Below are positions 30,834-57,682 of a DNA stretch of 64,000 nucleotides, one piece after another. Position 1 is the first letter of the stretch; each line of letters starts with the position of its first letter. A model generated the notes under the pieces. It did no database searches, was not told where the DNA came from, and saw only the letters and a program-made list of their open reading frames with translations. Source of the stretch: Agrococcus baldri (GTDB lineage: Bacteria; Actinomycetota; Actinomycetes; Actinomycetales; Microbacteriaceae); contig BJUU01000002.1 of the NCBI GenBank assembly GCA_007988785.1, positions 124,001 to 188,000 on the forward strand, given 5' to 3'. A program made the position numbers and the translations under genes.

Positions 30834-30875
30834 GGGACACCTGTCCCACCCTAACATTCGACGTGGCAATGTCAA
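30834..30875 (-). promoter_or_regulatory. caiB promoter with GGGACA operator A
   Basis: On the minus strand TTGACA (30870-30875) and TAGGGT (30848-30853) are 16 bases apart. Directly adjoining the -10 box is the 14-bp palindrome GGGACACCTGTCCC on the plus strand (30834-30847), covering the expected start point. It is one of nine such palindromes in the window. Confidence 0.7.
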
Positions 30876-30879
30876 TAAA

Positions 30880-31692
30880 ATGGGACATGTGTCCTGTCGA
30901 CTACCGTTGAGCGTCCGCTCCGCCGGCGCGCTCGTCCGCTACGACCTCGATCCCGAAGGCGACGGGCATCCGCTGCTGCTCGTGCACGGCGGCCGCGCGC
31001 ACCACGGCTGGTGGCAGCACCTCCTCCCCCTGCTCACCGAGCCCCGAGCGGTGATGGATCTCTCCGGGCACGGCGCGAGCGAGTGGCGGGACGCGTACAG
31101 CTACGACGACTGGGCGGGTGACGTGACGCGCGTCGCCGAAGCCTGTGCGCTGCGCACGGGCCGTCAGATCGTCGTCGTCGCGCACTCCCTCGGCGGCATC
31201 GCCGCGCTCCAGCCATCGGTGCGGATGAACGATGCTGTGCTCGCCGTGATCAGCGTCGAGGGCGTGCCGATGCCGAGCCTGTCCATCCGCCGCAGCTCTT
31301 CACCGAGCAGGGGCTTCACGTCGATCGAGTCGGCGCTCGAGCACTTCCGACGGGCACGCGACCGCGGCAGGTGGCGGCAGGACCTGGTCGACTCGGTCGC
31401 GCTGGCCAGCATTCGGCGTGACGGCGATCGGTACGACTGGGCTCACGACCCCAGGACGGTCGGCGTCCCCCACCCCCGCTCGATCGACAGCGCACCATCA
31501 CCGGCCGCCGTGCTCGTCGGAGCCCAGTCGGCGTATCGCGCGACGGTCGACGACGCGCTCTCTGCCGGCCCGGCCTGGCTCAGCCGGATCGAGGTGCCCG
31601 GCGTCGGCCACGACATGATGATGGAAGCGCCGGAGCGCTTCGTCACCACCGTGCGCGAGGTGGTCCGCTCGGTCACCGTCGATCGCGGCTGA
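30880..31692 (+). CDS. Alpha/beta hydrolase
   Basis: A 270-residue alpha/beta hydrolase with LLLVHGGRAHHGWW, MDLSGHGASEW, nucleophile VVAHSLGGIAAL and catalytic His in VPGVGHDMMM. It may open an ester or lactone in the pathway. It is divergent from caiB. No ribosome site is seen before the ATG at 30880, so it may be leaderless or start a little later (GTG 30889, TTG 30907). Operator B overlaps its first codons. It ends 3 bases from the convergent acyl-CoA synthetase gene. Confidence 0.82.
   Translation: MGHVSCRLPLSVRSAGALVRYDLDPEGDGHPLLLVHGGRAHHGWWQHLLPLLTEPRAVMDLSGHGASEWRDAYSYDDWAGDVTRVAEACALRTGRQIVVVAHSLGGIAALQPSVRMNDAVLAVISVEGVPMPSLSIRRSSSPSRGFTSIESALEHFRRARDRGRWRQDLVDSVALASIRRDGDRYDWAHDPRTVGVPHPRSIDSAPSPAAVLVGAQSAYRATVDDALSAGPAWLSRIEVPGVGHDMMMEAPERFVTTVREVVRSVTVDRG
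30882..30895. promoter_or_regulatory. GGGACA operator B
   Basis: GGGACATGTGTCCT matches the GGGACA-NN-TGTCCC palindrome with one mismatch. It overlaps the proposed start codon of the divergent hydrolase gene and lies 48 bases from operator A, on the far side of the caiB -35 box. Together the two sites bracket the divergent promoter region. Confidence 0.6.
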
Positions 31693-31695
31693 GCC

Positions 31696-33798
31696 TCAGG
31701 GCGTCTCCCCGTCGCTGCGAGTCAGCCACAGGTCGTCGACGACCCATGCCCCTTCGCTGGAGACGACCACAGGGTTGCACTCGACCTCATCGAGCTGCCC
31801 CGCCATCGCCGAAGCCATCTCCGAGAAGCGGACCAAGGTCGACACGAGTGCTTCGACGTCCCACTTGCCGCCCGCGAGCGCGCGGCCGAGGATCGGGTTC
31901 GACTCGAGGAGATGACGAGCGCGGACTTCGTCGAGCGGCGCCTGCGCGCTCGACAGATCGGCGATCGCCTCCACCAGCCCGCCGCCGAGCCCGGCGCTGA
32001 CGGTCACCCCGAAGTCGGGGTCCACCTTCGCGCCGATGAAGACCTCCATGCCGCCGCGAGGCAGCATCTTCTGGGTCTCGACGCGCAGCGTCCCGAGGTT
32101 CGGCATCGTGTCGCGCAGCGCTTCGAAGTTGTCGCTCAGTCGCTCGTATGCCCGGCGCGCCTCGTCCTCGGAGTGGACGTCGAGCGCGATCAGGCCGTAC
32201 TTCGCCTTGTGCGCGATCGCTTCGGAGGCGACCTTCATGGCGACGGGGTAGCCCATCTCCGACGACGAGCGGACAGCGGCATCCGGGTCGGTCACGAAGC
32301 TGTACGGGATGTAGTTCAGACCCCACTCCGTCAGCAGCTCTCTGCGCCCGGGCACGTCGTCCGGGATCCGCTTGTCGGCGGCCGGGACGACGCGCAGCTG
32401 GGTCGCGGGGCGGGCGGCCGCCGCCGAGAACGCGCGCAGCGATCGCATCAGGGGATCGATGCTCTCGTAGACGGGGATGCCTGCTCGCTCGAAGAAGCCG
32501 TAGCCGTCGCCCTCGCGACGTCCGGACGCGGCGTAGACCGACATCCGCACGCCGCGGCGCGACGCGAACTCACTGCACACCCTGCTCCACTCGGGCCAGG
32601 TCGTGTCCGGCATGAGGCCGAGCGAGAAGACGTACTCCTTGGCGCTCGTTCCGTCGGCGAGCGCATCCAGGACCTGGTCGAGCACACCGGGCCGGTCGAC
32701 TGCCAGGCCTGTGAGATCGAAGGGGTTCGTCGGGCTCGAGATGGGGACGATCTCACGCAAGCGGCCGATCGTCGCCTCGGTGAGCGGCTCGAAGGGCACA
32801 CTGCCACGATCTGCCGCGTCGGCCATGAGGCCGTTCAGACCACCGGACATGGACAGGCCGATGATGGAGCTGCTCGGCGCCGCGGCGCTCGTGGCGGCCA
32901 TCTTCGTCAGCGCGACCAGGTCCTCGAGCCCCTCGCAGATGATCACGCCGCGCGCCTCGGCCGCAGCCCGGAACGCCTCGTGCGAGCCCACGAGCGCTCC
33001 GGTGTGCCCGAAGGCGACCTCGGCTCCCGCCTTGGAGGCGCCCGCCTTGAGTGCGAGCACGGTCTTGCCGGCGCGCTGCAGCGCCTCGCAGGACGCGAGG
33101 AACCGATCGGCGTCGCGAACCTGCTCGAGGTAGAGCACCACGACTCGCGTGTCATCGTCGGCGGCGATGTACTCCATGTAGTCCGCGGCCTGCACGATCG
33201 CCTCGTTGCCGGCGCTGATGACGTAGCCGAAGCCGACGTCGGCCGCCTGCAGCCGGGCCATGATCGCGCCCGTCACGGTGCCGCTGTGCGAGACGACGCT
33301 GACGCTTCCGGCTCGGACGAGACGCTCCTGCTCGAGCAGGGGGTGGAACCCGAGCATCATGCCGTTGCGGAAGTTGAGCAGCCCGTTGGTGTTCGGGCCG
33401 CAGAGCACGATCTGCGCGGCACGAGCGCTCTCCGACAGCTCGCGCTGACGCTCAGCGCCGTCGCCGCCGATCTCGGCGAAGCCCGAGCTGCAGACGACCG
33501 CCGCGGGGATCTCGCGCTCGACCATCTCGTGCAGCGTCGGAAGCGCGTAGTCCGCATTGCGGAGCATCATCACGCAGTCCACCGCCTCTGGGAGGTCGGA
33601 CAGGCTCTGGTAGGAGGTCAGTCCCGCGATCGAGTCGAACTTCGGGTTCACGGGATAGATCGAGCCACGGAATCCGTAGCGTTGCAGGTTGAGGATGGGC
33701 TTGCTCGCGAGCTTCCCGTGGTCTCGCGCCGGGACGGCGCCCACGATGGCTACCGACTTCGCATCCAGCAGTGGACGCAGCGTCGCCGATGTATTCAT
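31696..33798 (-). CDS. NDP-forming acyl-CoA synthetase (acetate-CoA ligase type)
   Basis: A 700-residue fused protein: an N-terminal CoA-binding Rossmann domain (SVAIVGAVPARDHGKLASKP), a succinyl-CoA-ligase-like flavodoxin domain (SVVSHSGTVTGAI, AFGHTGALVGS) and a C-terminal ATP-grasp domain (from about 480; GYPVAMKVASEAIAHKAKYG, VEVECNPVVV-like DEVECNPVVV). Such enzymes make acyl-CoA from acid, CoA and ATP, forming ADP. AAGAGATG precedes the ATG. It is the third gene after the nitronate monooxygenase and enoyl-CoA hydratase genes, and likely activates a pathway acid. Confidence 0.9.
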   Translation of the reverse strand: MNTSATLRPLLDAKSVAIVGAVPARDHGKLASKPILNLQRYGFRGSIYPVNPKFDSIAGLTSYQSLSDLPEAVDCVMMLRNADYALPTLHEMVEREIPAAVVCSSGFAEIGGDGAERQRELSESARAAQIVLCGPNTNGLLNFRNGMMLGFHPLLEQERLVRAGSVSVVSHSGTVTGAIMARLQAADVGFGYVISAGNEAIVQAADYMEYIAADDDTRVVVLYLEQVRDADRFLASCEALQRAGKTVLALKAGASKAGAEVAFGHTGALVGSHEAFRAAAEARGVIICEGLEDLVALTKMAATSAAAPSSSIIGLSMSGGLNGLMADAADRGSVPFEPLTEATIGRLREIVPISSPTNPFDLTGLAVDRPGVLDQVLDALADGTSAKEYVFSLGLMPDTTWPEWSRVCSEFASRRGVRMSVYAASGRREGDGYGFFERAGIPVYESIDPLMRSLRAFSAAAARPATQLRVVPAADKRIPDDVPGRRELLTEWGLNYIPYSFVTDPDAAVRSSSEMGYPVAMKVASEAIAHKAKYGLIALDVHSEDEARRAYERLSDNFEALRDTMPNLGTLRVETQKMLPRGGMEVFIGAKVDPDFGVTVSAGLGGGLVEAIADLSSAQAPLDEVRARHLLESNPILGRALAGGKWDVEALVSTLVRFSEMASAMAGQLDEVECNPVVVSSEGAWVVDDLWLTRSDGETP

Positions 33799-33863
33799 GT
33801 GTCTCACATCTCTTGGGGTAGAACGAGGTGGGAGGCAGGTCGCCCCGCCTCCCACCCGGTCGA

Positions 33864-34631
33864 TCAGGCGCGTGCCCAGTTCGCGGGACGCCCTTCCGCG
33901 TACGATGTGGGACCCTCGAGGGCGTCCTCCGTGTGGTAGACGATCTCCTCGAAGAGGGCGTCCGAGACGTTCCATGCCGGGTACGTGACCTGGCCCGTGG
34001 ACGTGTCGAGCATCCGCTTGGTCGCGCGGATGGTCAGAGGCGCCCCCTTGCGGATCTCCTGCGCCCACTCGAGCGCGACCTCGAGCGCCTTCCCCTGCGG
34101 GACGATCGCATTGGCGAAGCCGATCTCGTAGGCACGCTGGGCGTCGATGCGCTTGCCCATCAGGGCCAGCTCGGCCCAGACGTTCTTCGGGATCTTCCAC
34201 ATCAGCGGCACCGACCACGGCGCGCCGCGTCCCCACCGAGCCTCGGGCATGCCGAACTCGGCGTTCTCGGAGGCGATCACGATGTCGCACTGCTGCGCGA
34301 GCAGCAGCCCGCCGCCGAGCGCATAGCCGTTGACGGCTGCGACCACGGGCTTGTCGGAGCGGATGTTGCGTCCGAGCTGCGGCATGTAGTGGCGCGACGG
34401 GATGGCCATGCCCTGCTCCGACATCTCTCGCAGGTCCGCGCCGGAGCAGAACGACTTGTCGCCCTCGCCGGTGACCACGATCACCTCGACGTCGTCGTTC
34501 TCGTTCGCCGCGTTGAACGTGTCCCACAGCCCCTGGCGGAGCGCCTCGCTCAGCGCGTTCAGCCGCTCCGGGTAGCGCAGGGTGATGATCCCGATGTGAT
34601 CCTCGACGTCGAGGGTGACATGTGCTGGCAT
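33864..34631 (-). CDS. Enoyl-CoA hydratase/isomerase (crotonase family)
   Basis: A 255-residue crotonase-fold protein with DKSFCSGADLREMSEQG and NGYALGGGLLLAQQCDIVIA forming the oxyanion hole and MPEARWGRGAPWSVPL in the catalytic segment. The second catalytic Glu position is unclear, so isomerase or dehalogenase-like activity cannot be excluded. GGAGAG precedes the ATG. Second gene of the operon headed by nitronate monooxygenase. Confidence 0.88.
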   Translation of the reverse strand: MPAHVTLDVEDHIGIITLRYPERLNALSEALRQGLWDTFNAANENDDVEVIVVTGEGDKSFCSGADLREMSEQGMAIPSRHYMPQLGRNIRSDKPVVAAVNGYALGGGLLLAQQCDIVIASENAEFGMPEARWGRGAPWSVPLMWKIPKNVWAELALMGKRIDAQRAYEIGFANAIVPQGKALEVALEWAQEIRKGAPLTIRATKRMLDTSTGQVTYPAWNVSDALFEEIVYHTEDALEGPTSYAEGRPANWARA

Positions 34632-34664
34632 TTGTTCTCTCCGATTTCGTGTGTGAGTGGGAAG

Positions 34665-35777
34665 TCAGATGAGGCCGCTGTAGGCGTTCTGGACGCGCTC
34701 AGCCGCTTCGACGGAGTCGGCCATGATCTCCTGCAGGACGTCTCGCACCGGCCTGATGGCAGTGAGGTCACCGACGATCTGGCCAACGGGCGTGCCGCTG
34801 TTGACGCCGCCCTGAGCGCGGAGCATCGCGGACTGCGCATCCTTCACGAGCACGCCCTGGAGCGGCGGGAGCAGCGGCTCCGGTGCGCCCTCCTCCTCCC
34901 ACGCCTCGACCCAGGGGGTGCGCAGCTGGCGAGCCATCCGGCCGCTCAGCGACCGGCTGCGGCGCGTGTCGGAGACCGACGCCTTGACCAGCAGCTCCTT
35001 GAGCGGCTCGGGCAGATCGCTCTCCTGCGTCACGAGCCAGGCGGAACCCATCCAGACGCCCTGTGCGCCGAGGGCGAAGGCCGCCGCGACCTGCGCGCCC
35101 GTGCCGACTCCGCCAGCCGTGAGGACGGGGATGTCGCCGGCGGCCCTGACGACCTGCGGCGTGAGCACGAGCGAGCCGATCTCGCCGGTGTGGCCACCGG
35201 CCTCGGTGCCGGTGGCGACGATGAGGTCGACGCCGGCGTCGAGGTGACGCTGCACGTGCTTGGGGTCGCCGACCTGCCCGGAGACCTTCATGCCGAGGGC
35301 GTGCAACTCCTCCACGGCATCCGTGGGCGGGGCACCGATCGCGGACGAGACCAGGGCGACCGGGTGCTTCTTGACGACCTCGAGCATCGCGAGCGCGTGG
35401 TCGCGGGTGAGGGGGTAGGCGTTCACCGCGCCGTCGCCGGGGCCATCGACGGACTGCAGCGGGATGCCGAAGCGCTCCTTGAGGCTGCCGATGTAGTCCC
35501 AGTAGTCCTCCGGCACCTGCGAGCGCAGGGACTCCGGGTCCATCGGCTGAGCGTCGGGCTTCGCGGCGGGGAAGATGATCGTCACCCCGTACGGCTTGCC
35601 ATCGAGGGCCTCGTCGATCTTGGAGAGCTCGATGTCGAACTGCTCCGGCGAGTATCGCGCGGTTCCCAGCACGCCCAGGCCACCTGCCTTCGACAGGGCG
35701 ATGACGACGTCTCGACAATGCGAGAACCCGCACACGGGAAATTCCAGTCCGAGCATCTCGGTCAGTTCACTGTTCAT
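34665..35777 (-). CDS. Nitronate monooxygenase family flavoprotein
   Basis: A 370-residue TIM-barrel FMN protein of the nitronate monooxygenase/2-nitropropane dioxygenase family, with ATGTEAGGHTGEIGSLVLTP, VLTAGGVGTGAQVAAAFALG and GVWMGSAWL. The family also includes enoyl reductase-like and other FMN oxidoreductases. In CoA-linked clusters its members often have uncertain roles. It is the first gene of the operon under operators C and D. Confidence 0.87.
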   Translation of the reverse strand: MNSELTEMLGLEFPVCGFSHCRDVVIALSKAGGLGVLGTARYSPEQFDIELSKIDEALDGKPYGVTIIFPAAKPDAQPMDPESLRSQVPEDYWDYIGSLKERFGIPLQSVDGPGDGAVNAYPLTRDHALAMLEVVKKHPVALVSSAIGAPPTDAVEELHALGMKVSGQVGDPKHVQRHLDAGVDLIVATGTEAGGHTGEIGSLVLTPQVVRAAGDIPVLTAGGVGTGAQVAAAFALGAQGVWMGSAWLVTQESDLPEPLKELLVKASVSDTRRSRSLSGRMARQLRTPWVEAWEEEGAPEPLLPPLQGVLVKDAQSAMLRAQGGVNSGTPVGQIVGDLTAIRPVRDVLQEIMADSVEAAERVQNAYSGLI

Positions 35778-35829
35778 GGGGGACTCCTCGTTGACCCTTC
35801 CCGCTATGCGTCATTGCAAGCATCCACTC

Positions 35830-35872
35830 GGGACGCGTGTCCCATGTTGCAGCGGATCACTTCACATGTCAA
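35830..35872 (-). promoter_or_regulatory. Nitronate monooxygenase promoter with GGGACA operator C
   Basis: On the minus strand TTGACA (35867-35872), a 17-base spacer and CAACAT (35844-35849) are followed without gap by the palindrome read as GGGACGCGTGTCCC on the plus strand (35830-35843). The operator would cover the transcription start. Confidence 0.7.
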
Positions 35873-36416
35873 GCGGACTCGGGACACCTGTCCCGAATTC
35901 GTCGGACTGCTCGTCGGAGACGGGGAAGTAGCCGACCCCGATGCCGGCCGCGCGGGTCGGCACCATGACGGACCGTGTCCACGACACGATCTCCGCCCCG
36001 TCCTGATTGAGCCCGCGGGTGCGCACGGTGACGATGCCCATGTCGGGGCGCGAGCCGCTGCGCCGGGTCGCCGTGCAGACGCTCTCGGCGTAGAGGGTGT
36101 CTCCGATGTACACGGGGTGGGAGAGCTTGATGTCCGTCCAGCCGAGGTTCGCCACGGCGTTCTGGCTCACGTCGATGACCGACAGGCCGAGCACGAGCGC
36201 GACGGTGAAGCCCGAGTTGACGATCACCCGACCCCCGCTGATGGGGTTGCTGGCCGCGAAGTGCGTGTTGAAGTGGTTCTGGTTCGTGTTCCCCGTCAGC
36301 ATGGTGAACCAGGTGCAATCCGTCTCGCTGATGGTTCGACCGAAGGGGTGCTGGTAGACATCGCCGACCTCGAAGTCGTCGAAGAAGCGTCCGAGCTCAG
36401 CGCGATGCAGTGTCAT
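35862..36416 (-). CDS. MaoC-like hydratase/dehydratase
   Basis: A 184-residue hot-dog-fold protein of the MaoC family. The motif reads TGNTNQNHFNTH, so the catalytic Asp of the classic GDxNPxH motif is Asn43 while His48 remains. Variants of this type occur among MaoC proteins acting on branched or methyl-substituted acyl-CoA. AAAGGAG 6 bases before ATG 36416 sets the start; the upstream extension reads through the operator and the divergent gene. Its last codons contain operator D. Confidence 0.87.
   Translation of the reverse strand: MTLHRAELGRFFDDFEVGDVYQHPFGRTISETDCTWFTMLTGNTNQNHFNTHFAASNPISGGRVIVNSGFTVALVLGLSVIDVSQNAVANLGWTDIKLSHPVYIGDTLYAESVCTATRRSGSRPDMGIVTVRTRGLNQDGAEIVSWTRSVMVPTRAAGIGVGYFPVSDEQSDEFGTGVPSPLDM
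35881..35894. promoter_or_regulatory. GGGACA operator D inside the end of maoC
   Basis: GGGACACCTGTCCC is identical to operator A and lies within the last codons of the maoC gene, upstream of the nitronate monooxygenase -35 box. It is 51 bases from operator C, about five helical turns, which would put both sites on one DNA face. Confidence 0.6.
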
Positions 36417-36432
36417 GAAGTACTCCTTTGTC

Positions 36433-36452
36433 GGGACAGTCGTCCCATAGTA
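36433..36452 (-). promoter_or_regulatory. maoC promoter -10 with GGGACA operator E
   Basis: The palindrome GGGACAGTCGTCCC (36433-36446; outer 5 bases of each arm perfect) directly adjoins a minus-strand -10 box TACTAT (36447-36452). The -35 box is weak. A divergent gene starts at 36498, so this site may serve both directions. Confidence 0.6.
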
Positions 36453-36497
36453 GGCGCGGCTGAGGTACGATCGTCTAGACCCGGCCCGGAGGATGCA

Positions 36498-37115
36498 ATG
36501 GACGAGACGCCTGCGAAGGCACTGCGGCGGCTGCAGGATCGCGAGGAGATCCGTGACTGCGTCGCCCGCTACGCCCGCGGCATAGACCGGCTCGATCGCG
36601 AGCTCACGCTCTCCGCGTACCACGCAGACGCGATCGACGATCACGGGAAGTTCCTGGGGACGCCGGCCGAGTTCGTCGACTGGGCGTTCACCATGCACCG
36701 CACCTTCCACCTGTCGCACCAGCACTCGATCCTCAACCAGACGTGCGAGCTGGACGGCGACGTCGCCCACGCGGAGACCTACTTCCTCTTCGCGTCGATG
36801 AACGTCTCCGGTCCGCCGTGGACGCTGTCCGGAGGCCGGTACATCGACCGGCTCGAGCGCCGGTCGGGCAGGTGGGCGATCGCGCACCGTCTCTGCGTCC
36901 GCGACTGGGCGACGACCGATTCGACCCTCGACCCGACGGATCCGACCTCGCTCACGGCGACCCAGGCATCCCTCACGCCGGCGCTCCGGTCGTTCTTCCG
37001 AGGGGCGCCGCACGGCCGCCGCGACACGGGCGACCCCTCGTACGACCGACCGCTGGTCATCGACCCTGTGCGCGAGGCGCACTGGCGCGACCTGCAGGCG
37101 GACCAGGGTGATTGA
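36498..37115 (+). CDS. SnoaL-like (NTF2-fold) protein
   Basis: A 205-residue protein with an N-terminal SnoaL-like domain: LQDREEIRDCVARYARGIDR, AYHADAIDDHG and FHLSHQHSILNQTCELDG. The fold covers isomerases, dehydratases and ring-hydroxylation accessory proteins; acidic and His residues in the cavity make a small-molecule enzyme likely, but the reaction cannot be named. CGGAGGA precedes the ATG. It is divergent from maoC and overlaps the CitE-like gene by 8 bases. Confidence 0.8.
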   Translation: MDETPAKALRRLQDREEIRDCVARYARGIDRLDRELTLSAYHADAIDDHGKFLGTPAEFVDWAFTMHRTFHLSHQHSILNQTCELDGDVAHAETYFLFASMNVSGPPWTLSGGRYIDRLERRSGRWAIAHRLCVRDWATTDSTLDPTDPTSLTATQASLTPALRSFFRGAPHGRRDTGDPSYDRPLVIDPVREAHWRDLQADQGD

Positions 37116-37932
37116 GCTGCTCGCGCGGGGCCCCGCCGTCCTGTTCTGCCCCGCCGACCGCCCCGAGCTCCTCAGCAAGGCGCTCGAGCGAGCGGATGCG
37201 GTGGTGATGGATCTCGAAGACGCGGTCGCGGCGGACCGCAAGTCACACGCGAGAGAGACTGCTCGCCAAGTGCTCCGCGACTTCCCCAGCAGTCACCTCG
37301 CGGTCAGGGTGAACGCGCCTGCGACGCCGTGGTTCGCCGACGACGTTGACGCGCTTGCAGAGTTCGGCTCGATCCCGCTCGTGATCCCCATGGCAGAGAG
37401 CGCCTCGCAGCTCGGGCGAGCGCTCGACCACGCACTGATCCCGCTGATCGAGACCCCTCGGGGAGTCGCCGCCGCCGCCGAGCTCGCGGACGCATCCCCC
37501 ACGGTCGCACTCATGTGGGGTTCGGAGGATTTGGCCGTGGCGCTGCACTCGCGCGCCAGCAGGCCGCACGGCTCGCTCACTCCGGTGATGCAGGCGGCGC
37601 GTTCCGCCGTGCTCCTCGCGGCCGCAGCCGCTGGCAAGCCCGTCATCGATGCGGTCCTCCCCGACTTCCGACCCATGGCGCGTGAGCTCGTGATCGCAGA
37701 AGGACGAGAGGCCGCCGACATGGGGTTCGATGCCAAGGCATGCATCCACCCCGCACAGGTGGCGTGGATTCGTGAGAGCTTCCGAGCCTCCGATGAGGAT
37801 CTCGAGCGCGCGAGCCAGATCGTCAGCGCTGCAGAGCGGCACAGCGGAGCGTTCTCGTTGGACGGCGAGATGATCGATGCGCCGATCATCTCGCACGCTC
37901 GACGCATCCTGGCCCTGAGCGGTCTGGCGTGA
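37108..37932 (+). CDS. CitE-like / HpcH aldolase family lyase
   Basis: A 274-residue TIM-barrel lyase with AVVMDLEDAVAADRKSHARE, LIPLIETPRGVAAAA, LMWGSEDLAVAL and the C-terminal GFDAKACIHPAQVAWI of the CitE family. It probably cleaves or hydrolyses a malyl- or citramalyl-type CoA thioester. It starts with GTG and overlaps the SnoaL-like gene. It differs clearly from the other CitE-like protein at 28.7 kb, so two different thioesters may be handled. Confidence 0.88.
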   Translation: MIELLARGPAVLFCPADRPELLSKALERADAVVMDLEDAVAADRKSHARETARQVLRDFPSSHLAVRVNAPATPWFADDVDALAEFGSIPLVIPMAESASQLGRALDHALIPLIETPRGVAAAAELADASPTVALMWGSEDLAVALHSRASRPHGSLTPVMQAARSAVLLAAAAAGKPVIDAVLPDFRPMARELVIAEGREAADMGFDAKACIHPAQVAWIRESFRASDEDLERASQIVSAAERHSGAFSLDGEMIDAPIISHARRILALSGLA

Positions 37933-38032
37933 CGGTCATGCAGCACACCGACCGCGCACCGAAGGCTGGCTACCATGACCCAGCAGCTCCTCTGTGGGCG
38001 ACCCGCCTCCACTCGACTGAGAAGACAAGACC

Positions 38033-45608: not shown

Positions 45609-45613
45609 CGACG

Positions 45614-49652: not shown

Positions 49653-49683
49653 GAAGTTCTCCTCATTGAGACTAGTGTCCGTC

Positions 49684-49700: not shown

Positions 49701-49739
49701 AACTGTCCTAGAATATCGGCAGACCTCTCGACATGTCAA
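49696..49739 (-). promoter_or_regulatory. ABC-operon promoter with GGGACA operator G
   Basis: On the minus strand TTGACA (49734-49739), an 18-base spacer and TATTCT (49710-49715) are followed without gap by GGGACAACTGTCCT (plus strand 49696-49709, one mismatch to the perfect palindrome). Confidence 0.7.
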
Positions 49740-49974: not shown

Positions 49975-51207
49975 TCAGGTCGTGGGCGTCAGCAGCTCCC
50001 GGAGGTCCTCGACCGCAGCGACCGCTGCAGCCTCGACGTGCTGCTGCGATCCGACCAGCTCCTTGGCCCGCACGAAGTCCTTCATCCTGTTCACGCAGTC
50101 CATGGCCACGATCTGCGAGTCCTTGAGGTACGCCACGCTGAACTGCCCGGTCGCCGGCTCGCCGCGTACGACGAGCTCGTCGTACGCGCCCAGGACGCCT
50201 ACGGTGCGCAGCTTGGTCTCGTACTGATGCGACCAGAACCACGGGATCTCGTGAACGCTGGCCTCCTCGCCCATCAGCGATCGCGCCACGACCTTCGCCT
50301 GCGCGGTCACGTTCGGCACCGACTCCAACCTGAGCTGGCGTCCCGAGGCGAAGTGTCGCTCCATGTTCGCGCAGTCCCCGAGTGCGAAGACATTGGGGAG
50401 ACTGGTGCTGCAGGAGGCGTCGACGTCGACGCCATTGCTGCAGACGGCTCCGGCGGCACGCAACGGCTCCACCTCTGGGATGATCCCGACGCCCACGACC
50501 ACGATGTCGGCCGGAATCGACGTGCCATCCGCCAGCTCCACGCTGCTCACGACCCCGGAGCGCCCTTCGATGCGCTCGACGACAGCCGAGGTGATGATCT
50601 TGACGCCGGCATCCGTATGCAGACGCGCGTAGTAGTCAGAGACCACCGGGCTGGTGACGCGCGCCAAGAGACGATCCTGCGCCTCGAGCACGGCGACGTC
50701 CAGACCCATGTGGCGCATCGCTGCGGCGACCTCCAGGCCGATGTGCCCGCCCCCGATCACCGCCATCGATCGTGCGGACTGGGCGCGGCGCCGCAGCACC
50801 TGGGCGTCCTCCAGCGTACGGACGTGCACGACGCCGTCGAGATCGCTGCCCTCGATGCTGAGCGCACGCGGGCTGCCGCCCGCCGCCCACACGAGCTGGT
50901 CGTAGGCGAAGCGCGAGCCCGTCGACGTCGTGACCTGTTGGGCGGCCGCATCCACCTCGGTCACGCGCTCGCCGAGGTGCCACTCGAAGTTCTCAGACGC
51001 GAAGAACTGCTGAGGCTTCAGCTGCAGCGAGACCTCGTCGACCTCGCCTCTCATGAAGGCCTTCGACAAGGGCGTCCGATCGTAGGGCAGCTCGCTCTCT
51101 GCGCTCAGGACGCGGATGCTGCCTGTGAAGTGTGCGGCACGCAGGTTCGTCGCGACATGCAGCGCGGCAAGACCCCCGCCCACGATGACCACATCTTGCG
51201 TTGTCAC
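49975..51207 (-). CDS. Ferredoxin reductase (rhodocoxin/putidaredoxin reductase type)
   Basis: A 410-residue FAD-dependent NAD(P)H oxidoreductase with an FAD motif VVIVGGGLAALHVATNL (6-22), PYDRTPLSKAFM, the NAD-binding AVIGGGHIGLEVAAA (about 149-163) and NVFALGDCAN. It should pass electrons from NADH to the [2Fe-2S] ferredoxin at 51689 and on to the P450. It overlaps the HtaA-domain gene by 4 bases and is the last gene of the P450 operon. Confidence 0.92.
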   Translation of the reverse strand: MTTQDVVIVGGGLAALHVATNLRAAHFTGSIRVLSAESELPYDRTPLSKAFMRGEVDEVSLQLKPQQFFASENFEWHLGERVTEVDAAAQQVTTSTGSRFAYDQLVWAAGGSPRALSIEGSDLDGVVHVRTLEDAQVLRRRAQSARSMAVIGGGHIGLEVAAAMRHMGLDVAVLEAQDRLLARVTSPVVSDYYARLHTDAGVKIITSAVVERIEGRSGVVSSVELADGTSIPADIVVVGVGIIPEVEPLRAAGAVCSNGVDVDASCSTSLPNVFALGDCANMERHFASGRQLRLESVPNVTAQAKVVARSLMGEEASVHEIPWFWSHQYETKLRTVGVLGAYDELVVRGEPATGQFSVAYLKDSQIVAMDCVNRMKDFVRAKELVGSQQHVEAAAVAAVEDLRELLTPTT

Positions 51208-51680
51208 TTTGCTTCCTCTTCCTCAGAGAGCCGTTCGACGACGAGCCTGTCCAACTCGGCACCCAATGGGTACACGCCGTCGAACACGTGGACCCCTCCG
51301 ATCGCGAGGACCGCGTCGAACACCCAACGGGTGTCGCTCTGCATGTCCTCGACGCGTGCGAGTCGAGCGAGCTCGACCCGCAGACCCGACGTCGTCCCCG
51401 ATCGGCGGATGCTCAGCCGCAAGTCGCCGTCGCTGCCCTCGATCCACGGTTCGTTCAGCGCGACGTCGAGAAGGCCATCGTGGGCGCGGAACCCGGCTGC
51501 CCCGCGACAGCGGATCAGCTCGGGCGAGTCCATCGTCGCGGCCGGATCGGCAGCCGGGAAGACGAAGGTTCCGTCAGGCAGCCGCGACGCACCGTCGGAG
51601 ACGTGCTCCTCAGCGCCTTCGATGGAGCCGATGTACTCCCGAAAGCTCGACTTGATCCCCCACCGGATCACGTACGGCAT
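51204..51680 (-). CDS. HtaA-domain protein without signal peptide
   Basis: A 158-residue protein that is a single HtaA (haem-transport-associated) domain. The N-terminal IRWGIKSSFREYI (Tyr16), SDGASRLPDGTFVFP, GFRAHDGLLDVAL (His67) and C-terminal HVFDGVYPLGAELDRL match the domain pattern, in which Tyr and His residues bind haem in corynebacterial HtaA. Unlike those surface proteins it has no signal peptide, membrane anchor or second domain, so it should be cytoplasmic. It sits between the ferredoxin (8-base gap) and reductase (4-base overlap) genes of the P450 operon. Possible roles: haem delivery to the P450 or an unrelated ligand-binding task; both are inference. Confidence 0.78.
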   Translation of the reverse strand: MPYVIRWGIKSSFREYIGSIEGAEEHVSDGASRLPDGTFVFPAADPAATMDSPELIRCRGAAGFRAHDGLLDVALNEPWIEGSDGDLRLSIRRSGTTSGLRVELARLARVEDMQSDTRWVFDAVLAIGGVHVFDGVYPLGAELDRLVVERLSEEEEAK

Positions 51681-51688
51681 GGAGAATC

Positions 51689-52015
51689 TCAGTTCTCAGG
51701 GGCGACGTAGATGTCGATGCCATCGAGCTCTTCGCGGAGCTCGATCTGGCAGGACAGCCGGCTGCGCTCGGAGTCGTACGCGTCCGACGTCTCGAGCAGG
51801 TCGATCTCGTCTGCAGACGCCGGTGGCAGTCGCCCGCTCCAACTCTCATGCACGAAGACGTGGCAGGTCGCGCAGGACATCTCGCCACCGCACTCCCCCA
51901 CGACGCCCCCCACACCGTTGGAGACCGCGACGCGCATCAGGTTCTCGCCGTCCGACGCCTGGATCGACACATGCTTCTCGTCGGGCTGCTCGAAGAAGTT
52001 GACGTTCACGTTCAT
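51689..52015 (-). CDS. [2Fe-2S] ferredoxin, adrenodoxin type
   Basis: A 108-residue ferredoxin with cluster ligands Cys42, Cys48, Cys51 and Cys89 in the C-x5-C-x2-C...C pattern (ECGGEMSCATCHV and LSCQI), like putidaredoxin and rhodocoxin. It shuttles electrons from the reductase at 49975 to the P450 encoded 13 bases upstream. Complete and normal in length. Confidence 0.94.
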   Translation of the reverse strand: MNVNVNFFEQPDEKHVSIQASDGENLMRVAVSNGVGGVVGECGGEMSCATCHVFVHESWSGRLPPASADEIDLLETSDAYDSERSRLSCQIELREELDGIDIYVAPEN

Positions 52016-52028
52016 CGCTCCCGTCCCC

Positions 52029-53297
52029 TCAGGCCACGCGCGAAGGCGAGAGATCCCGGGGCGTGAAGCTCACCGGCATGGTCGTGAATCCGGCGACGCT
52101 GCGGTCCGCGATCCAGTTGGGTTCGCCCGGCTCCGTCATCTCGAGGTCAGGGAAGGCTTCCAGGAGCTTCGGGAAGAAGACCGTGAGCTCGAGCCGTGCG
52201 AGATTGCGCCCCAAGCATCCGTGGACTCCCGCGCCGAACGAGAGGTGGTCGTTCGGCGTCCTCTGGATGTCGAACGCATCGGGGCGATCGAAGACGCGCT
52301 CGTCACGATTCGCCGACGTCAAGAACGTGATCACCCAATCGCCGGTTCGGATCCGCTTCCCATGGAAGTCGAAGTCCTGGGTCGCGACGCGGAACCGATT
52401 CCGCTCAGGCGTGGACCACCGCACGACCTCCTCGGCCGCAGCCTTCGCCAGCGCGGGATCCTCCAGCAGCAGGCGCCGCTGCTCCGGGTGCTGCATGAAC
52501 AGCCACGTCCCGACCGATGCGGCAGTGCGTGTCGTCTCCGCTCCTCCGCCGATGACGGTCACGTAGTACAGCATCGCCTCATGCACGCTGAGCGGGTCCC
52601 CGTCGATCTCCATCTGGGTGATCGCGGTCGCGAAGTCGTCGCGCGGGTTCTTCTGGCGGTCCTTCGCGAGCTCGGTGCCGTAGTCGATCAGTTTCTGGAG
52701 CCCATGCAGCGAGGTCGCGACCTCATCCCCGTCGATGATGTACCGAGGGTCTGCCGCCGACATCCACTGCCAGGTCGCCTCGTCGAGGTACCCCATGTCC
52801 GACTCCGGCACGCCCAGCATCCCGAGCACGACCTTCATCGGCAGCGCGCTCGCCAGATCCTCGACGACGTCCACTTCGCCCTTCGGAGCGACATCGCGGA
52901 TGATCTCGTCGACGACCCGTTCGATGTGCGCGCGGAGCTTGCCCACGGACGGGACGCTGAAGTGCTTGTTCATCGGCCGCCTGTACAGCGCGTGCACGGG
53001 GTCGTCGTTGGTCGTCAGGCGCACGTCCAATCCCTGCGCATGGCGCTCCTCCGGAGTCCGCCGCTTCGGGGTCCTCGGCACCCGCGTGTCGAGCCTCGAG
53101 CTGAACCGCGCAGGATCCTGCAGGTACTCCAGGGTGTGATCGTACCGAGTGAGCAGCCAGTAGTCCTTGCCGTAGACCGGGTCCTCTGTCCAATGCACTG
53201 GGTCCTCGTCGCGCAGCATCTTGAACGCGGCATGGTGCTCCGGCGTCGTGTACCAGTGGGGATCGAGGATCTTGGTGTCGAAATCATTGACGCTCAT
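52029..53297 (-). CDS. Cytochrome P450
   Basis: A 422-residue bacterial class I P450. The I-helix has VIGGGAETTRTA, the ExxR motif is EEVVR, and the haem-binding loop is FGAGVHGCLGRN with Cys361 as ligand. AGGAG precedes the ATG at 53297. It heads the P450-ferredoxin-HtaA-reductase operon under operator H, so redox partners are supplied together. Likely hydroxylates an alicyclic or terpenoid substrate, judging from the diketone-hydrolase-like and SDR genes next door; the substrate itself cannot be read. Confidence 0.94.
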   Translation of the reverse strand: MSVNDFDTKILDPHWYTTPEHHAAFKMLRDEDPVHWTEDPVYGKDYWLLTRYDHTLEYLQDPARFSSRLDTRVPRTPKRRTPEERHAQGLDVRLTTNDDPVHALYRRPMNKHFSVPSVGKLRAHIERVVDEIIRDVAPKGEVDVVEDLASALPMKVVLGMLGVPESDMGYLDEATWQWMSAADPRYIIDGDEVATSLHGLQKLIDYGTELAKDRQKNPRDDFATAITQMEIDGDPLSVHEAMLYYVTVIGGGAETTRTAASVGTWLFMQHPEQRRLLLEDPALAKAAAEEVVRWSTPERNRFRVATQDFDFHGKRIRTGDWVITFLTSANRDERVFDRPDAFDIQRTPNDHLSFGAGVHGCLGRNLARLELTVFFPKLLEAFPDLEMTEPGEPNWIADRSVAGFTTMPVSFTPRDLSPSRVA

Positions 53298-53335: not shown

Positions 53336-53377
53336 GGGACTGCTGTCCCACTCTACGCGACTGTGCATGCCCGTCAA
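53336..53377 (-). promoter_or_regulatory. P450-operon promoter with GGGACA operator H
   Basis: On the minus strand TTGACG (53372-53377), a 16-base spacer and TAGAGT (53350-53355) are followed without gap by the palindrome GGGACTGCTGTCCC (plus strand 53336-53349; outer 5 bases of each arm perfect). Confidence 0.68.
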
Positions 53378-53391: not shown

Positions 53392-54393
53392 TCAGCCAGC
53401 GAATCGGGCGATGCCTGCGGCGCGTGCCGAGGACACCCAGACCTCGTCGCCCACGATCAGCCCCGTCGTGCCCAGGCCGAACGTCTCCTCGCCGTACTGG
53501 ACGAGGGTCGTCGCCTCCAGCGTCTCGGCATCGATCCTCACGACCTGGCACGGGAAGAAGCAGCGGTCCTTCGTGCTGAAGCAGGCGAAGATCTGATCCG
53601 GCGTGGTGTCGAACGCCCCGGTGGCGAGCACGTCGCCGTCGGGCGTCCAGGTCAGGTTGTCGACGAGGATGTCCAGCTCGACGACGTCCACCTCGGTGCC
53701 CTCCGCCGAACGGCGCAGACGGACGACGTTCCGGTTGCGCCAGCCCGCGATGAAGACCGTCTGCCCGTCTGCCGTGGCCACGATCCCGTTCGCGCCAGCC
53801 ATCAGGCTGCCGTCCACGGTCGAGCTGCCGACCCCTGGACGCCACTCGATGGCACCCGGGATCTCGACTCCCGCGAACATCCGCGCCATGCCCTCAGCCA
53901 GTCCGTCCGTGTCGGGATCGGCGGTGTTCGACACGATGAACCCGCCATCGGCGAGCGGCGCGACGTCGTTGGGCCACGTCCCGCGCGGCAGCACCACAGC
54001 GCCCCGCCAGGTCAGGACGGGGAACCTCCCGCCGAGCTCGACGTCGAACACCTCGATCGACTCGCGACCGCCGTGGTTGACGACATACAGCCTGTACGAA
54101 CCGTCTTCCGCCCGCAGCACGCTGAGCCCGTGCGGCTCGAACTCGAGGGGGTCGAGCACGGCAGGCTCCGAGCCGAACACGGACTCGTCGAGATCCGACC
54201 CGCACCGATACGGGTAGATCTCCTGCACGCCATGGGACTGCGAATCGATCGCGTACAGTCGGCCGGTCGGGACCGACGTCGCCATCATGCCGCTGCCGAT
54301 GACCCATGGCGTGCCAGGCACGCCCACGATCTTCTCGGCGTTGATGGGGCCGTCGATCACGCCGATGAACTCGGCGACATTGCTGCTGGACAT
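53392..54393 (-). CDS. SMP-30/gluconolactonase or arylesterase-like beta-propeller protein
   Basis: A 333-residue six-bladed beta-propeller-type protein. EFEPHGLSVLRAEDGSYRLY, VVNHGGRESIEVFD, TWPNDVAPLADGGFIVSN and NGIVATADGQTVFIAG are like paraoxonase/SMP-30 lactonases, with Asn and Asp residues placed to bind calcium. No signal peptide is seen. As last gene of the SDR operon it could hydrolyse a lactone formed in the pathway. Family assignment is moderate; strictosidine-synthase-like proteins are an alternative. Confidence 0.78.
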   Translation of the reverse strand: MSSSNVAEFIGVIDGPINAEKIVGVPGTPWVIGSGMMATSVPTGRLYAIDSQSHGVQEIYPYRCGSDLDESVFGSEPAVLDPLEFEPHGLSVLRAEDGSYRLYVVNHGGRESIEVFDVELGGRFPVLTWRGAVVLPRGTWPNDVAPLADGGFIVSNTADPDTDGLAEGMARMFAGVEIPGAIEWRPGVGSSTVDGSLMAGANGIVATADGQTVFIAGWRNRNVVRLRRSAEGTEVDVVELDILVDNLTWTPDGDVLATGAFDTTPDQIFACFSTKDRCFFPCQVVRIDAETLEATTLVQYGEETFGLGTTGLIVGDEVWVSSARAAGIARFAG

Positions 54394-54442
54394 GCTGGTG
54401 CTCCTTCGTGGTGCGTTGGATCTGGGCGCGACGCGCGGGGGA

Positions 54443-55177
54443 TCAGTCGATCGTCAATCCGCCGTCGACGTTGAGCGATTGCGCGGTGATGGTCCGCGAT
54501 CGATCGGACGCCAGGAACACCGCAGCCGCGGCGATGTCGGCGGGGAGCGACGGTATCCCGAGCGGGATCTCCCCGATGTACTCGGGATGCTCGGCGACCC
54601 ACTGCTCGTTCAGCGGCGAGAGCACGATGCCCGGGCAGATCGCGTTCACGCGTATGCCGTACCGCGCCAGCTGCATCGCTCCGGCACGGGTGAGGCCGAG
54701 GACCCCGCCCTTCGAGCTCGCGTATGCCGCAGAGGACGTGTGGCGATACCCCTTCGCAGCCATCGACGAGATGTTGACGAACGCGCCGCCGCCGTGATCC
54801 TTCATGTGACGGGCTCCTGCCCTCATGAGGAAGAACATGCTCCGCACGTTGACCGCTTGCACCCGGTCCCAGTGCTCGTCCTCGATCTCGAAGAAGTCGA
54901 CGAACTTCGTGATCCCGGCGTTGTTGACGACCACATCGAGCCCGCCATGCTCGCTGATGGCGTGAGCGACCAAGCGCTCGACATCGTCGACATCGGAGAC
55001 GTCCGTCCGCACGAAGTCGGCGCCGATCGCGGCCGACACCGCACGCCCCTGATCCTCCTTGACGTCAGCCACCACGACGCGCGCACCCTCCTGCGCCATC
55101 AGCTCCGCGATGGCATGTCCGATGCCCTGCGCGCCACCGGTCACGATGACCGTCTTGCCTGCCAACTCGTGGTGCAT
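54443..55177 (-). CDS. Short-chain dehydrogenase/reductase
   Basis: A 244-residue classical SDR: VIVTGGAQGIGHAIAEL, DVVVNNAGITKF, NISSMAAKG with active Ser and AYASSK as YxxxK. The Asp-rich ADVKED after beta-2 favours NAD. It lies 2 bases downstream of the oxocamphor-hydrolase-like gene, fitting oxidation of the P450-made alcohol to a ketone. Confidence 0.92.
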   Translation of the reverse strand: MHHELAGKTVIVTGGAQGIGHAIAELMAQEGARVVVADVKEDQGRAVSAAIGADFVRTDVSDVDDVERLVAHAISEHGGLDVVVNNAGITKFVDFFEIEDEHWDRVQAVNVRSMFFLMRAGARHMKDHGGGAFVNISSMAAKGYRHTSSAAYASSKGGVLGLTRAGAMQLARYGIRVNAICPGIVLSPLNEQWVAEHPEYIGEIPLGIPSLPADIAAAAVFLASDRSRTITAQSLNVDGGLTID

Positions 55178-55179
55178 CG

Positions 55180-55956
55180 CTAGTCCTCTCGGGCTGCTGG
55201 TTCGGCGACGATCGACGACGGCGACGGATTCGGGTAGAACTGCCTGGCGAGACCCGCGTACGCGAGCCCCTGCGCGACCGCCTCGCCGTAGAGACGGCGA
55301 TCCTGCATCCGCAGGGTCGCGCTGGCGTATGCGAGCGTCTCTCGAGACAGCTCCGCCAACGGCGCCGCGATCTCGAGAGCGCGGTCGAGCAGCGCCTCGC
55401 GCTCGTGCACCTCATGGACGATGCCCAGTCGCAATGCCTCCTCGCTCTCGATCGATGCACCGGTCAGCAGGAAGTAGCTGGATCGCGTCGGGCCGAGGAG
55501 CTCGCGCCACACGACCTGCACACCATCCCCGGGCACCACGCCGCGCGTCATGTGCGCGCGATCCGCGAACGATGCCTCCGGCGCCGCCAAGACGATGTCC
55601 GCCAGCACCGCGAGCTCAGTGTGGATCGAGACGGGTCCGTTCACGATCGAGATCAACGGCACGTTGAGATCGACCATGCCGCTGATCATGCGACGCCCCT
55701 CGACCCAGATGTCGTGCCACTCCTTCTCCAGGCTCGGGGAGATGATCTCGACACAGAAGTTGGGACCCGTGCCCATCAGCACAGCGACACGCGTCGCCTC
55801 ATCCCCCGAGAGCCAGACCCACAGGTCGGCCAGCTCTTGATGGGCTCTCGCGGTCCAGACCAAGGGTCCGTCGTGGGTGTGCAGGCGCAGCAGCGTGATC
55901 GCGCCACGTCGAGTCACTTCGATGTTCTGCCATTCATCAGGTTGCAGATAGCCCAC
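55180..55956 (-). CDS. 6-Oxocamphor hydrolase-like crotonase (beta-diketone C-C hydrolase)
   Basis: A 258-residue crotonase-superfamily protein that resembles 6-oxocamphor hydrolase rather than enoyl-CoA hydratases: GPLVWTARAHQELADLW, LMGTGPNFCVEI and RGVVPGDGVQVVW with SYFLLTG. His112, His135 and Asp144 have the spacing (23 and 9) of His122, His145 and Asp154 of that enzyme; the Glu completing its set is not obvious here. Such enzymes open cyclic 1,3-diketones by retro-Claisen cleavage. GTG 55956 follows AGAGGGAG. SDR genes flank it on both sides and the P450 operon follows, as expected for hydroxylation, oxidation and ring cleavage. Confidence 0.8.
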   Translation of the reverse strand: MGYLQPDEWQNIEVTRRGAITLLRLHTHDGPLVWTARAHQELADLWVWLSGDEATRVAVLMGTGPNFCVEIISPSLEKEWHDIWVEGRRMISGMVDLNVPLISIVNGPVSIHTELAVLADIVLAAPEASFADRAHMTRGVVPGDGVQVVWRELLGPTRSSYFLLTGASIESEEALRLGIVHEVHEREALLDRALEIAAPLAELSRETLAYASATLRMQDRRLYGEAVAQGLAYAGLARQFYPNPSPSSIVAEPAARED

Positions 55957-55982
55957 TGTGCTCCCTCTTCCACCGTCTCGGA

Positions 55983-56852
55983 TCAATTGCCCGCGGTCGG
56001 CAGGTAGCCGACCACGCCACTCTGACCACCGTCGACCAGGAGGTTCTGGCCTGTGATCCACATCGCGTCGTCGCTCGCGAGGAACAGCACAGCGGAAGCG
56101 ACGTCCCACGCCGAGCCCTCGATCTGCAGCGGCACGCCCCGCGCCCTCGTCTCCCGGTGAGCCTCGATCTCGGCCCGTGACATCCCCAGCGTCACGAGAC
56201 GCCGTCTTCCCATCGGCGTCCAGACCTGCCCTGGGCTGACCCCGTTGACACGCACGCCGCGAGCTCCGTACTCCACCGCCATCGTGTTGACGATCGCGTT
56301 CAGCGCGCCCTTCGACGCCTCGTAGTCGAGCTTGCCGAACGTTCGGAACGCTCCGAGCGAGCCGATGTGCACGATCGAGGCGCGGCTGCCCAGTCGCGGC
56401 AGCGCGGCCCGGCTCACCCGGATCGTCCCCATCAGGTTGACGTCGAGCGTCGCCAGGATCTCGTCGTCGCCGGCGTCCAGCGTCGAGGCGTCACCCAGGA
56501 CCGCTGCTGCGTTCACGACCACATCGAGAGCACCGAAGGACGAGGCCGTCTGCTCTACCGCGGCCTCGACGCTCTCCCGACTCCTCAAGTCGGCCAAGGC
56601 AGCGATGGCTCTGCCCCCGAGATCCGTGATCCGGTCCACCGTGCGCTGCGCCGCGGCTGCGTCGACGTCGACGACCGCGACCGCGGCGCCGGCATGGGCG
56701 AGGAGGACGGCGATGGCGTGCCCGATGCTCGGAACCGAGTCGGCGGGATCCCCCGCACCGGTCACCAGCGCCACCTTGCCGCTCAGACGGCCGCGGGCGC
56801 GATCGGCGAGCTGGGGTCGCTCGGGCACGACCAGGCCGCGCGGCGCGCTCAC
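55983..56852 (-). CDS. Short-chain dehydrogenase/reductase
   Basis: A 289-residue SDR with an N-terminal extension of about 25 residues before the nucleotide fold (VALVTGAGDPADSVPSIGHA, an insertion in the Gly-rich loop), VVVNAAAVLGD, IVHIGSLGAF with active Ser, and DYEASK as YxxxK. GTG 56852 forms a GTGA overlap with the SDR gene upstream; ATG 56864 is an alternative with a poorer ribosome site. The widened cofactor loop is unusual. Confidence 0.87.
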   Translation of the reverse strand: MSAPRGLVVPERPQLADRARGRLSGKVALVTGAGDPADSVPSIGHAIAVLLAHAGAAVAVVDVDAAAAQRTVDRITDLGGRAIAALADLRSRESVEAAVEQTASSFGALDVVVNAAAVLGDASTLDAGDDEILATLDVNLMGTIRVSRAALPRLGSRASIVHIGSLGAFRTFGKLDYEASKGALNAIVNTMAVEYGARGVRVNGVSPGQVWTPMGRRRLVTLGMSRAEIEAHRETRARGVPLQIEGSAWDVASAVLFLASDDAMWITGQNLLVDGGQSGVVGYLPTAGN

Positions 56853-57592
56853 GCTGCCGTCCATCCGCCGTCGACCGTCAGCTCGACCCCCGTGACGTAG
56901 CTCGCGAGATCGGAGGCCAGATAGACCGCCGCGCTTGCGATCTCGGTCGCGTCGGCCATCCTGTTGATCGGCTGACGCGTCGTCAATCGCTGCAGGGTGG
57001 CACCCGAGTCGCCCGCCGCTGCGATCACCTGCGTGAGCATGGGGGAGCTCGTGGTCCCGGGATGCACGACGTTGGCACGGATGCCACGTGACGCGTACTG
57101 CACCGCGACCTGCCTGGTCAGCGCCACGACGGCGCCCTTGGACGCCGAGTACGAGGCCCGGTCGTCGATGCCGATGACCGCGGCGGTGGAGCCGGTGTTC
57201 ACGATCGCCCCGCGCCCGGCCCTGAGCATCGAAGGCAGCACTGCCTTCATGCCGACGAAGACCCCTCGGGCATTGACCCGCATGATGCGTTCGAACTCGT
57301 CGACAGTCGCATCGAGGAGATCCGTGAAGGCGTTGATCGCAGCGTTGTTGAAGATGGCGTCGATGCGCCCGGTCTGCGCGGCGACGTCGTCGACGAACGC
57401 CGTCATCGAATCCCAGTCGGCCACGTCGACCTCGGCTCGCAGCGCACCCTCGGGGGCACTCTCGGGATCGACGTCAGCGACGTAGACCGTCGCACCGGAC
57501 TCGATCAGCAGACGCGTGATCGCAGCGCCGATTCCCGATGCACCGCCGGTCACGATCGCCGTCTGGCCATCGAAATCAAACTTCGTCGTCAT
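56849..57592 (-). CDS. Short-chain dehydrogenase/reductase
   Basis: A 247-residue classical SDR with AIVTGGASGIGAAITRL, DAIFNNAAINAF, VNTGSTAAVIG with active Ser and SYSASK as YxxxK. GAGGAAG precedes the ATG. First gene of the SDR-SDR-OCH-SDR-lactonase operon, divergent from the TRAP transporter genes; operator I lies 77 bases upstream. Confidence 0.92.
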   Translation of the reverse strand: MTTKFDFDGQTAIVTGGASGIGAAITRLLIESGATVYVADVDPESAPEGALRAEVDVADWDSMTAFVDDVAAQTGRIDAIFNNAAINAFTDLLDATVDEFERIMRVNARGVFVGMKAVLPSMLRAGRGAIVNTGSTAAVIGIDDRASYSASKGAVVALTRQVAVQYASRGIRANVVHPGTTSSPMLTQVIAAAGDSGATLQRLTTRQPINRMADATEIASAAVYLASDLASYVTGVELTVDGGWTAA

Positions 57593-57637
57593 GAGAACTT
57601 CCTCGTCCTGGCCGTCAGCCGCACCACGCCGTGCGCC

Positions 57638-57682
57638 TTGACACAAGGTACATGAAAACTGATACTTAGGGACAGCTGTCCC
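57638..57682 (+). promoter_or_regulatory. TRAP-operon promoter with GGGACA operator I
   Basis: TTGACA (57638-57643), a 17-base spacer and GATACT (57661-57666) precede the fully symmetric GGGACAGCTGTCCC at 57669-57682, the best copy of the motif. The site lies in the divergent region and could also affect the SDR operon. Confidence 0.7.

Follow-up and report, generated by a model that had tools for sequence, protein, structure and literature searches.

Nine palindromic sites and a candidate IclR-family repressor in a catabolic island of Agrococcus baldri

We analysed a 64,000-nucleotide stretch of the genome of Agrococcus baldri (Microbacteriaceae), positions 124,001 to 188,000 of contig BJUU01000002.1 in assembly GCA_007988785.1, called the window throughout and numbered from its first base. 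Between 26.6 and 59.7 kb the window holds an uncharacterised catabolic island, in which gene families were assigned from Pfam and NCBIfam profile matches across 30 open reading frames (ORFs) of at least 80 amino acids, and operon limits were drawn from gene order and strand. The island encodes transporters, a P450 with redox partners, CoA-dependent enzymes and an IclR-family protein, and it carries nine confirmed copies (A to I) of a 14-bp palindrome, GGGACA-N2-TGTCCC, at 30834-57682, which we consider here as candidate operators of that protein.

The nine sites are closely alike. Four match GGGACANNTGTCCC exactly (A at 30834, D at 35881, F at 38965 and I at 57669) and five with a single mismatch (B at 30882, C at 35830, E at 36433, G at 49696 and H at 53336), in agreement with the nine positions given by the first-pass annotation of this DNA. 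Eight of the 14 palindrome positions (.GGAC....GTCC.) are invariant, with 18 of 18 half-site reads each and all nine sites alike; the outermost two are less fixed (16 of 18 half-site reads), as is the inner A/T pair (15 of 18), and the flanks show a mere preference for C or T at the adjoining base (10 and 6 of 18). Using a symmetric weight matrix with leave-one-out scoring, every site fell within the window's top nine, and with the full matrix the ninth score over the window was 19.4 bits and the tenth 10.4. No match with up to two mismatches occurs in window positions 1-30833, in line with the earlier remark that the first 30 kb appeared free of sites. With up to three mismatches, the window holds 22 matches against 36.1 expected from shuffles; loose matches are not enriched, and the regulon signal therefore depends on the nine tight sites. 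A degenerate copy, GAGACTAGTGTCCG, lies at 49668-49681, 28 bp from operator G, and scores 9.4 bits; it is possibly a weak second site.

Most of the sites directly follow promoter-like sequences. We applied a fixed rule (a -35 box with at least five of six matches, a -10 box with at least three of six, a spacer of 16-19 nt and a -10 ending 0-7 nt before the site) to the sites on both strands (18 tries) and to one-strand controls. Six of the nine sites (A, C, F, G, H and I) have such a promoter-like pair, whereas the rate over 63,800 control positions on the + strand is 0.45% and, among 6222 positions preceding ORFs, 50 have one; the -35 boxes of all six sites have five or six of six matches. 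On the - strand, the -10 box ends 0 nt from the site in four cases: operator A (30834-30847) abuts TAGGGT (-35 TTGACA, spacer 16) of the CoA-transferase operon, its centre 27.5 nt before the GTG at 30813; operator C (35830-35843) abuts CAACAT (-35 TTGACA, spacer 17) of a nitronate-monooxygenase-like gene, its centre 59.5 nt before the ATG at 35777; operator G (49696-49709) abuts TATTCT (-35 TTGACA, spacer 18) of an ATP-binding cassette (ABC) transporter operon; and operator H (53336-53349) abuts TAGAGT (-35 TTGACG, spacer 16) of the P450 operon. On the + strand, operator F (38965-38978) follows TAGCCT (-35 TTGACG, spacer 18) of an aldehyde dehydrogenase gene after 7 nt, and operator I (57669-57682) follows GATACT (-35 TTGACA, spacer 17) of a tripartite ATP-independent periplasmic (TRAP) transporter operon after 2 nt.

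Two further sites directly abut good -10 boxes with a weak best -35 (four of six matches, spacer 19): operator B (30882-30895, + strand; TAAAAT), before a divergent alpha/beta-hydrolase gene, and operator E (36433-36446, - strand; TACTAT), before a MaoC gene, with its centre 23.5 nt from the MaoC ATG and 58.5 nt from the divergent SnoaL ATG. For operator D (35881-35894, - strand), which lies within the final MaoC codons, no -10 box was found before the site. B and D stand 48 bp from A and 51 bp from C, respectively, and precede the -35 box of promoter A by 6 nt and that of promoter C by 8 nt; we read D, and in part B, as additional operators on the upstream side of a -35. Promoter C has its -35 between operator D and the end of MaoC, with 2 nt left before the stop codon. 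Operator D and this -35 both fall within the final codons of MaoC (35867-35894). The distance from site centre to likely start codon is about 18-74 nt (uncertain for B), apart from the 83.5 nt that separate I from the ATG at 57592 of the divergent short-chain dehydrogenase/reductase (SDR) operon.

In sum, placement from the -10 box to just past the expected start, the position of a repressor operator, is seen at six of nine sites and, with a weak -35, at two more, D being the exception. The first-pass annotation had picked out the same six promoters and read the layout as that of repressor operators, and both statements hold up against the control positions; its remark that E adjoins a -10 box also stands, with the proviso that the -35 there is weak. 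Many IclR-family regulators of aromatic pathways are activators, and B and D, upstream of a -35, occupy a possible activator position. We nevertheless regard it as quite unlikely that the IclR protein binds these sites as an activator or dual regulator and not as a plain repressor: in eight of nine cases the site is at a -10 box or immediately behind it, a poor place for activation, and the six good promoters, with -35 boxes of five or six matches, would hardly need help.

The sites are confined to one part of the genome. Across the assembly (3,158,485 bases, 48 contigs, 99.83% complete), there are nine occurrences of the palindrome at one mismatch or fewer, every one within 30834-57682 of the window (26.8 kb, 0.85% of the genome), and the reversed-pattern control occurs once. 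With up to two mismatches there are 33 matches and 38 for the control, so no further sites rise above background. The first-pass annotation had named a similar random density genome-wide as grounds for rejecting the regulon, and this is not what we find. Because all nine tight matches share one stretch, the regulon is local, and the earlier description is corrected to that scope.

Exact palindromes elsewhere in the family were taken as background. They occur in 31 of 299 family genomes (reversed control, 20), with four copies in this genome, three in genome G100, two in G040 and one in each of the others. In 29 of the 30 other genomes, a 3-kb locus around an exact palindrome (one per genome, L015-L043) held no relative of the searched island proteins (MaoC not included) at 1e-10, and for MaoC, SnoaL and a DctP-like ORF there was no match at 1e-8 in 47 loci (L011-L047, L057-L061 and L076-L080). 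In G100, two of the three exact GGGACATATGTCCC copies (L076 and L078) lie in flanks that resemble inverted copies of one mobile element. The same G100 copies would favour reading the palindromes as a dispersed repeat or the end of a mobile element. For the window we hold this to be highly improbable, since its sites share just the 14-bp core and the C/T preference at the next base, and keep one placement with respect to promoters whichever the strand.

The first-pass annotation named no regulator; our results favour the IclR-family protein of 38033-38815 (+ strand, 260 amino acids), the sole regulator-family protein among the 30 ORFs. It matches HTH_IclR (PF09339; 30.6 bits, cut-off 22) and IclR_C (PF01614; 51 bits, cut-off 24; 51.9 bits in the genome search), and it scores below the curated NCBIfam cut-offs for BhcR (67 of 350 bits), PcaR/PcaU (52.9 of 284.75) and KdgR (44.6 of 275). 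It is the best candidate for, and most likely, the repressor that acts at sites A-I. Two groups of IclR operators have been described, group 2 having the consensus TGRAACA-N1-2-TGTTYCA, and IclR sites usually fall at -20 to -80 from the start with a peak at -22 (PMC8222616). The island sites resemble group 2 in part, namely in half-site arrangement, in an N2 spacer within the N1-2 range, in the ACA/TGT core and in distances to likely starts that fall mostly in the -20 to -80 zone; they differ in one symmetric base, G for A directly outside ACA, and in that the outer T/A of the consensus is not conserved.

Homologs of the candidate offered a second view of its operator. Tracking orthologs as a route to the motif was dropped, as only relatives of 27-32% identity were available, and the homologs' own upstream sites were examined instead. 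The five closest homologs found share 30-34% identity with the island protein and lie in loci L057-L061 (18.5-20 kb each, 98 kb of context). Upstream of its own IclR gene, each of L057, L058 and L059 carries GGAAC-N4-GTTC, which begins 131-164 nt before the IclR alignment start; the best or joint best inverted repeat within 330 nt before the aligned start is CAACGGAACA-N2-TGTTCTGTTG or a close variant. GGAAC-N4-GTTC is also present three times elsewhere in these 98 kb, and three occurrences in about 1.65 kb of upstream sequence are thus well above that rate. Relatives of the SDR, ferredoxin reductase and CoA-transferase lie near the IclR homolog in these three loci, and P450 relatives in L057 and L059. 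Together with their conserved CAACGGAACA-N2-TGTTCTGTTG-like palindrome, this suggests that L057-L059 may represent a further cluster under IclR control in the same family.

Several points weigh against assigning the sites to this protein. No operator stands directly before the IclR gene, and its control through site E would need a SnoaL-CitE-IclR transcript; no good promoter was found on the + side of E, and a stricter promoter scan of 36400-39100 found none, though it missed promoter F too. All nine sites carry G, not A, just outside ACA (GGGACA vs GRAACA in group 2), and the site pairs are 48 and 51 bp apart vs the usual tandem spacing of 18-22 bp in the IclR family. Upstream of the IclR genes in L060 and L061 there is no clear palindrome, by eye just a half-site GGAACA. 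The sampled genomes contain no close ortholog: at 1e-20 the protein was found in five of 299 family genomes including its own (the four others at 30-31% identity; the same four genomes, n=298, when a homolog was the query), at 1e-25 in two of 394 class genomes including its own (the other at 32%), and in a wider genome-contig collection at one weak locus (27%), with no plasmid relative at 1e-10. The operator could therefore not be tracked together with its regulator. Finally, in a survey limited to IclR_C, the genome encodes nine further proteins with this domain.

These further IclR_C proteins, the TetR and MarR-like proteins on the same contig, and the absence of a site directly before the island's IclR gene would fit repressor operators of another regulator encoded elsewhere, the island's IclR protein doing something else. 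Other regulators on the contig, outside the island, include a TetR protein (1789-2388), a MarR-like protein (17000-17608; 49.1 bits, cut-off 220) and an ArsR protein (61061). We judge this alternative unlikely. The nine tight sites all lie inside the island, as expected of a dedicated regulator; no palindrome match with up to two mismatches lies near the TetR, MarR-like or ArsR gene; and the group 2 layout, with similar sites at three of the five closest homologs, argues for an IclR protein of this kind. We consider it likely that a local regulon is repressed by the island's own IclR protein.

The candidate's recognition helix reads PKSGLHR, where its homologs have SPSTAHR, SPSTVHR or SASTAHR. 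In group 1 IclR proteins, Lys at the second helix position is associated with G/C, and His at the sixth has a weak association with C; in group 2, no significant contact was found at the second position, and at the sixth only Leu goes with G/C (PMC8222616). By group 1 contacts, Lys and His of PKSGLHR would tentatively fit TGTCCC, on an alignment to TtgV numbering made by eye. A fuller reading, which we put forward as a possibility we do not favour as a whole, is that the IclR protein reads a shifted code, GGGACA for GGAACA, through PKSGLHR (SPSTAHR in the homologs with GGAAC-N4-GTTC), that it bridges the promoter-bracketing operator pairs at A and C about five helical turns apart, and that the pathway degrades a compound not yet linked to a described gene cluster.

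We propose that the nine palindromes would be operators of one dedicated repressor controlling a 27-kb catabolic island. In the absence of ligand, an IclR dimer or tetramer would sit on GGGACA-N2-TGTCCC right behind the -10 box, over the expected start, and sterically exclude RNA polymerase; at promoters A and C, the second operator just upstream of the -35 would bracket the promoter. Binding of the substrate or an early intermediate to the IclR C-terminal domain would then open the promoters together. The induced set would comprise the importers (ABC, TRAP and perhaps the major facilitator superfamily (MFS) transporter), the P450 and its redox partners, the lactonase, SDRs and aldehyde dehydrogenases, followed by CoA activation, acyl-CoA dehydrogenation, MaoC hydration and CitE-type cleavage.

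Gene order and strand allow each operator to be linked provisionally to genes. Operator A may control a family III CoA-transferase (29611-30813, - strand; PF02515, 1.2e-99), the first gene after it, and the rest of the operon as far as scanned (26646-29624, - strand), namely an HpcH/HpaI (CitE-like) lyase (28704), an FAA-hydrolase (27778) and an acyl-CoA dehydrogenase (26646), given as ORF limits whose true starts may differ; further genes possibly follow. Operator B may serve the alpha/beta hydrolase (30907-31692, + strand; PF12697), whose start is uncertain (ATG 30880, GTG 30889 or TTG 30907). The pair C/D may act on the nitronate monooxygenase/FabK-like flavoprotein (34665-35777, - strand) and perhaps on the ADP-forming type acyl-CoA synthetase behind it (CoA_binding_2, Succ_CoA_lig, ATP-grasp_5; ORF limits 31696-34527, - strand, true start probably later). 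Under operator E may come the MaoC-type hydratase (35862-36416, - strand) and perhaps the divergent genes for the SnoaL-like protein (36498-37115, + strand; a Pfam match within a longer ORF, 33828-37115), an HpcH/CitE-type lyase (37108-37932, + strand) and the IclR protein.

Farther along, operator F may govern the aldehyde dehydrogenase (39021-40481) and perhaps the MFS transporter (40789-41997), which are putatively cotranscribed (39021-41997, + strand). Operator G may control the ABC importer (binding protein, ATPase and permease) with an aldehyde dehydrogenase, an SDR and a Gfo/Idh/MocA oxidoreductase (42167-49652, - strand), and operator H the P450, a 2Fe-2S ferredoxin, an HtaA-domain protein and a ferredoxin reductase (49975-53297, - strand). 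Operator I may act on TRAP transporter genes DctQ and DctM (57695-59664, + strand) and perhaps on the divergent set of two SDRs, an enoyl-CoA hydratase, another SDR and a paraoxonase-like lactonase, the last a weak match with no Pfam hit (53392-57592, - strand). A third TRAP gene, DctP-like, at 59742-60785 was judged by eye from its lipoprotein-type N-terminus and its place. The HtaA-domain protein is free-standing (158 amino acids, 51204-51680), between the ferredoxin and the ferredoxin reductase of the P450 operon.

Going by these families, the pathway would take up and oxidise a hydrophobic or branched compound, open a lactone and break down a branched dicarboxylate as its CoA thioester. 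Nearest to the P450 among Protein Data Bank (PDB) sequences is CYP125MRCA, whose name points to a reconstructed ancestor, followed by P450terp, CYP125 and CYP124. At 1e-40 the P450 was found in one of 24 genus genomes, its own, and at 1e-15 the HtaA-domain protein had one other relative among 394 class genomes (37% identity). The distribution of the P450 and the IclR protein suggests that the genes may have been acquired with their own regulator. The two best of 124 plasmid records with CoA-transferase relatives come from Rhodococcus koreensis (56.9%) and Nonomuraea gerenzanensis (58.9%). Both 41-kb neighbourhoods have an HpcH-type relative (25 and 32%) adjoining the CoA-transferase, and SDR relatives; they hold no relative of any other searched island protein at 1e-8 and no palindrome with up to one mismatch, one being present with two.

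Two neighbouring gene sets are also of note. Right beside the island, at 61061-63829, the ArsR-type regulator gene is accompanied by methylcitrate-cycle-like genes (citrate-synthase-like and methylisocitrate-lyase-like N-termini, by eye), a possible propionyl-CoA sink. At 294-10941, thiolase, MaoC, ChsH2-type OB-fold, acyl-CoA ligase, acyl-CoA dehydrogenase and TetR genes form a palindrome-free set that resembles a steroid or fatty-acid side-chain cluster.

One protein and nine sites with very low genomic background make a candidate regulator-operator pair. The operators would delimit which genes of the island act together, and the substrate question would become a reporter test. The pair may also be a case of an IclR recognition helix shifting its operator by one symmetric base, and might supply expression tools for actinobacteria with an orthogonal operator.

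Genes under IclR control include dehydrogenase COGs and subunits of transporters, DctPQM for example, and the island is unlike published IclR regulons in having nine sites in one 27-kb stretch (PMC8222616). Sites behind the -10 box would imply repression by steric exclusion and ligand release, as in PheR of Sphingobium sp. SHPJ-2; PheR is an IclR-family repressor of uptake and catabolism that protects -21 to +23 of the start (PMC13273656). PheR thus resembles the island model as an IclR repressor over the start and differs in having one operon, a GCAACG core and phenanthrene as effector. Itaconate degradation by RipABC likewise brings together a CoA-transferase, a MaoC hydratase and a CitE-type lyase, and the best NCBIfam models of the island's hydratase and both its lyases are RipB (RipB/Ich-like) and RipC. 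The island differs in its P450 branch and in scores that fall well short of the equivalog cut-offs (163.1 of 340 bits for the hydratase; 116.6 and 139.5 of 375 bits for the lyases, the latter for that at 37108-37932), which do not identify these proteins as RipB or RipC. In the KstR-type steroid regulons of Actinobacteria, one repressor acts at many operators in one catabolic cluster with a P450, acyl-CoA dehydrogenases and SDRs; KstR belongs to the TetR family and has a motif other than the island palindrome. Literature searches for the motif, its half-sites and IclR regulons, incomplete in coverage, turned up no description of a GGGACA-N2-TGTCCC regulon, consistent with the first-pass view of it as undescribed. 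The new elements are a variant operator and the pathway that it delineates, in a type of system that is well known.

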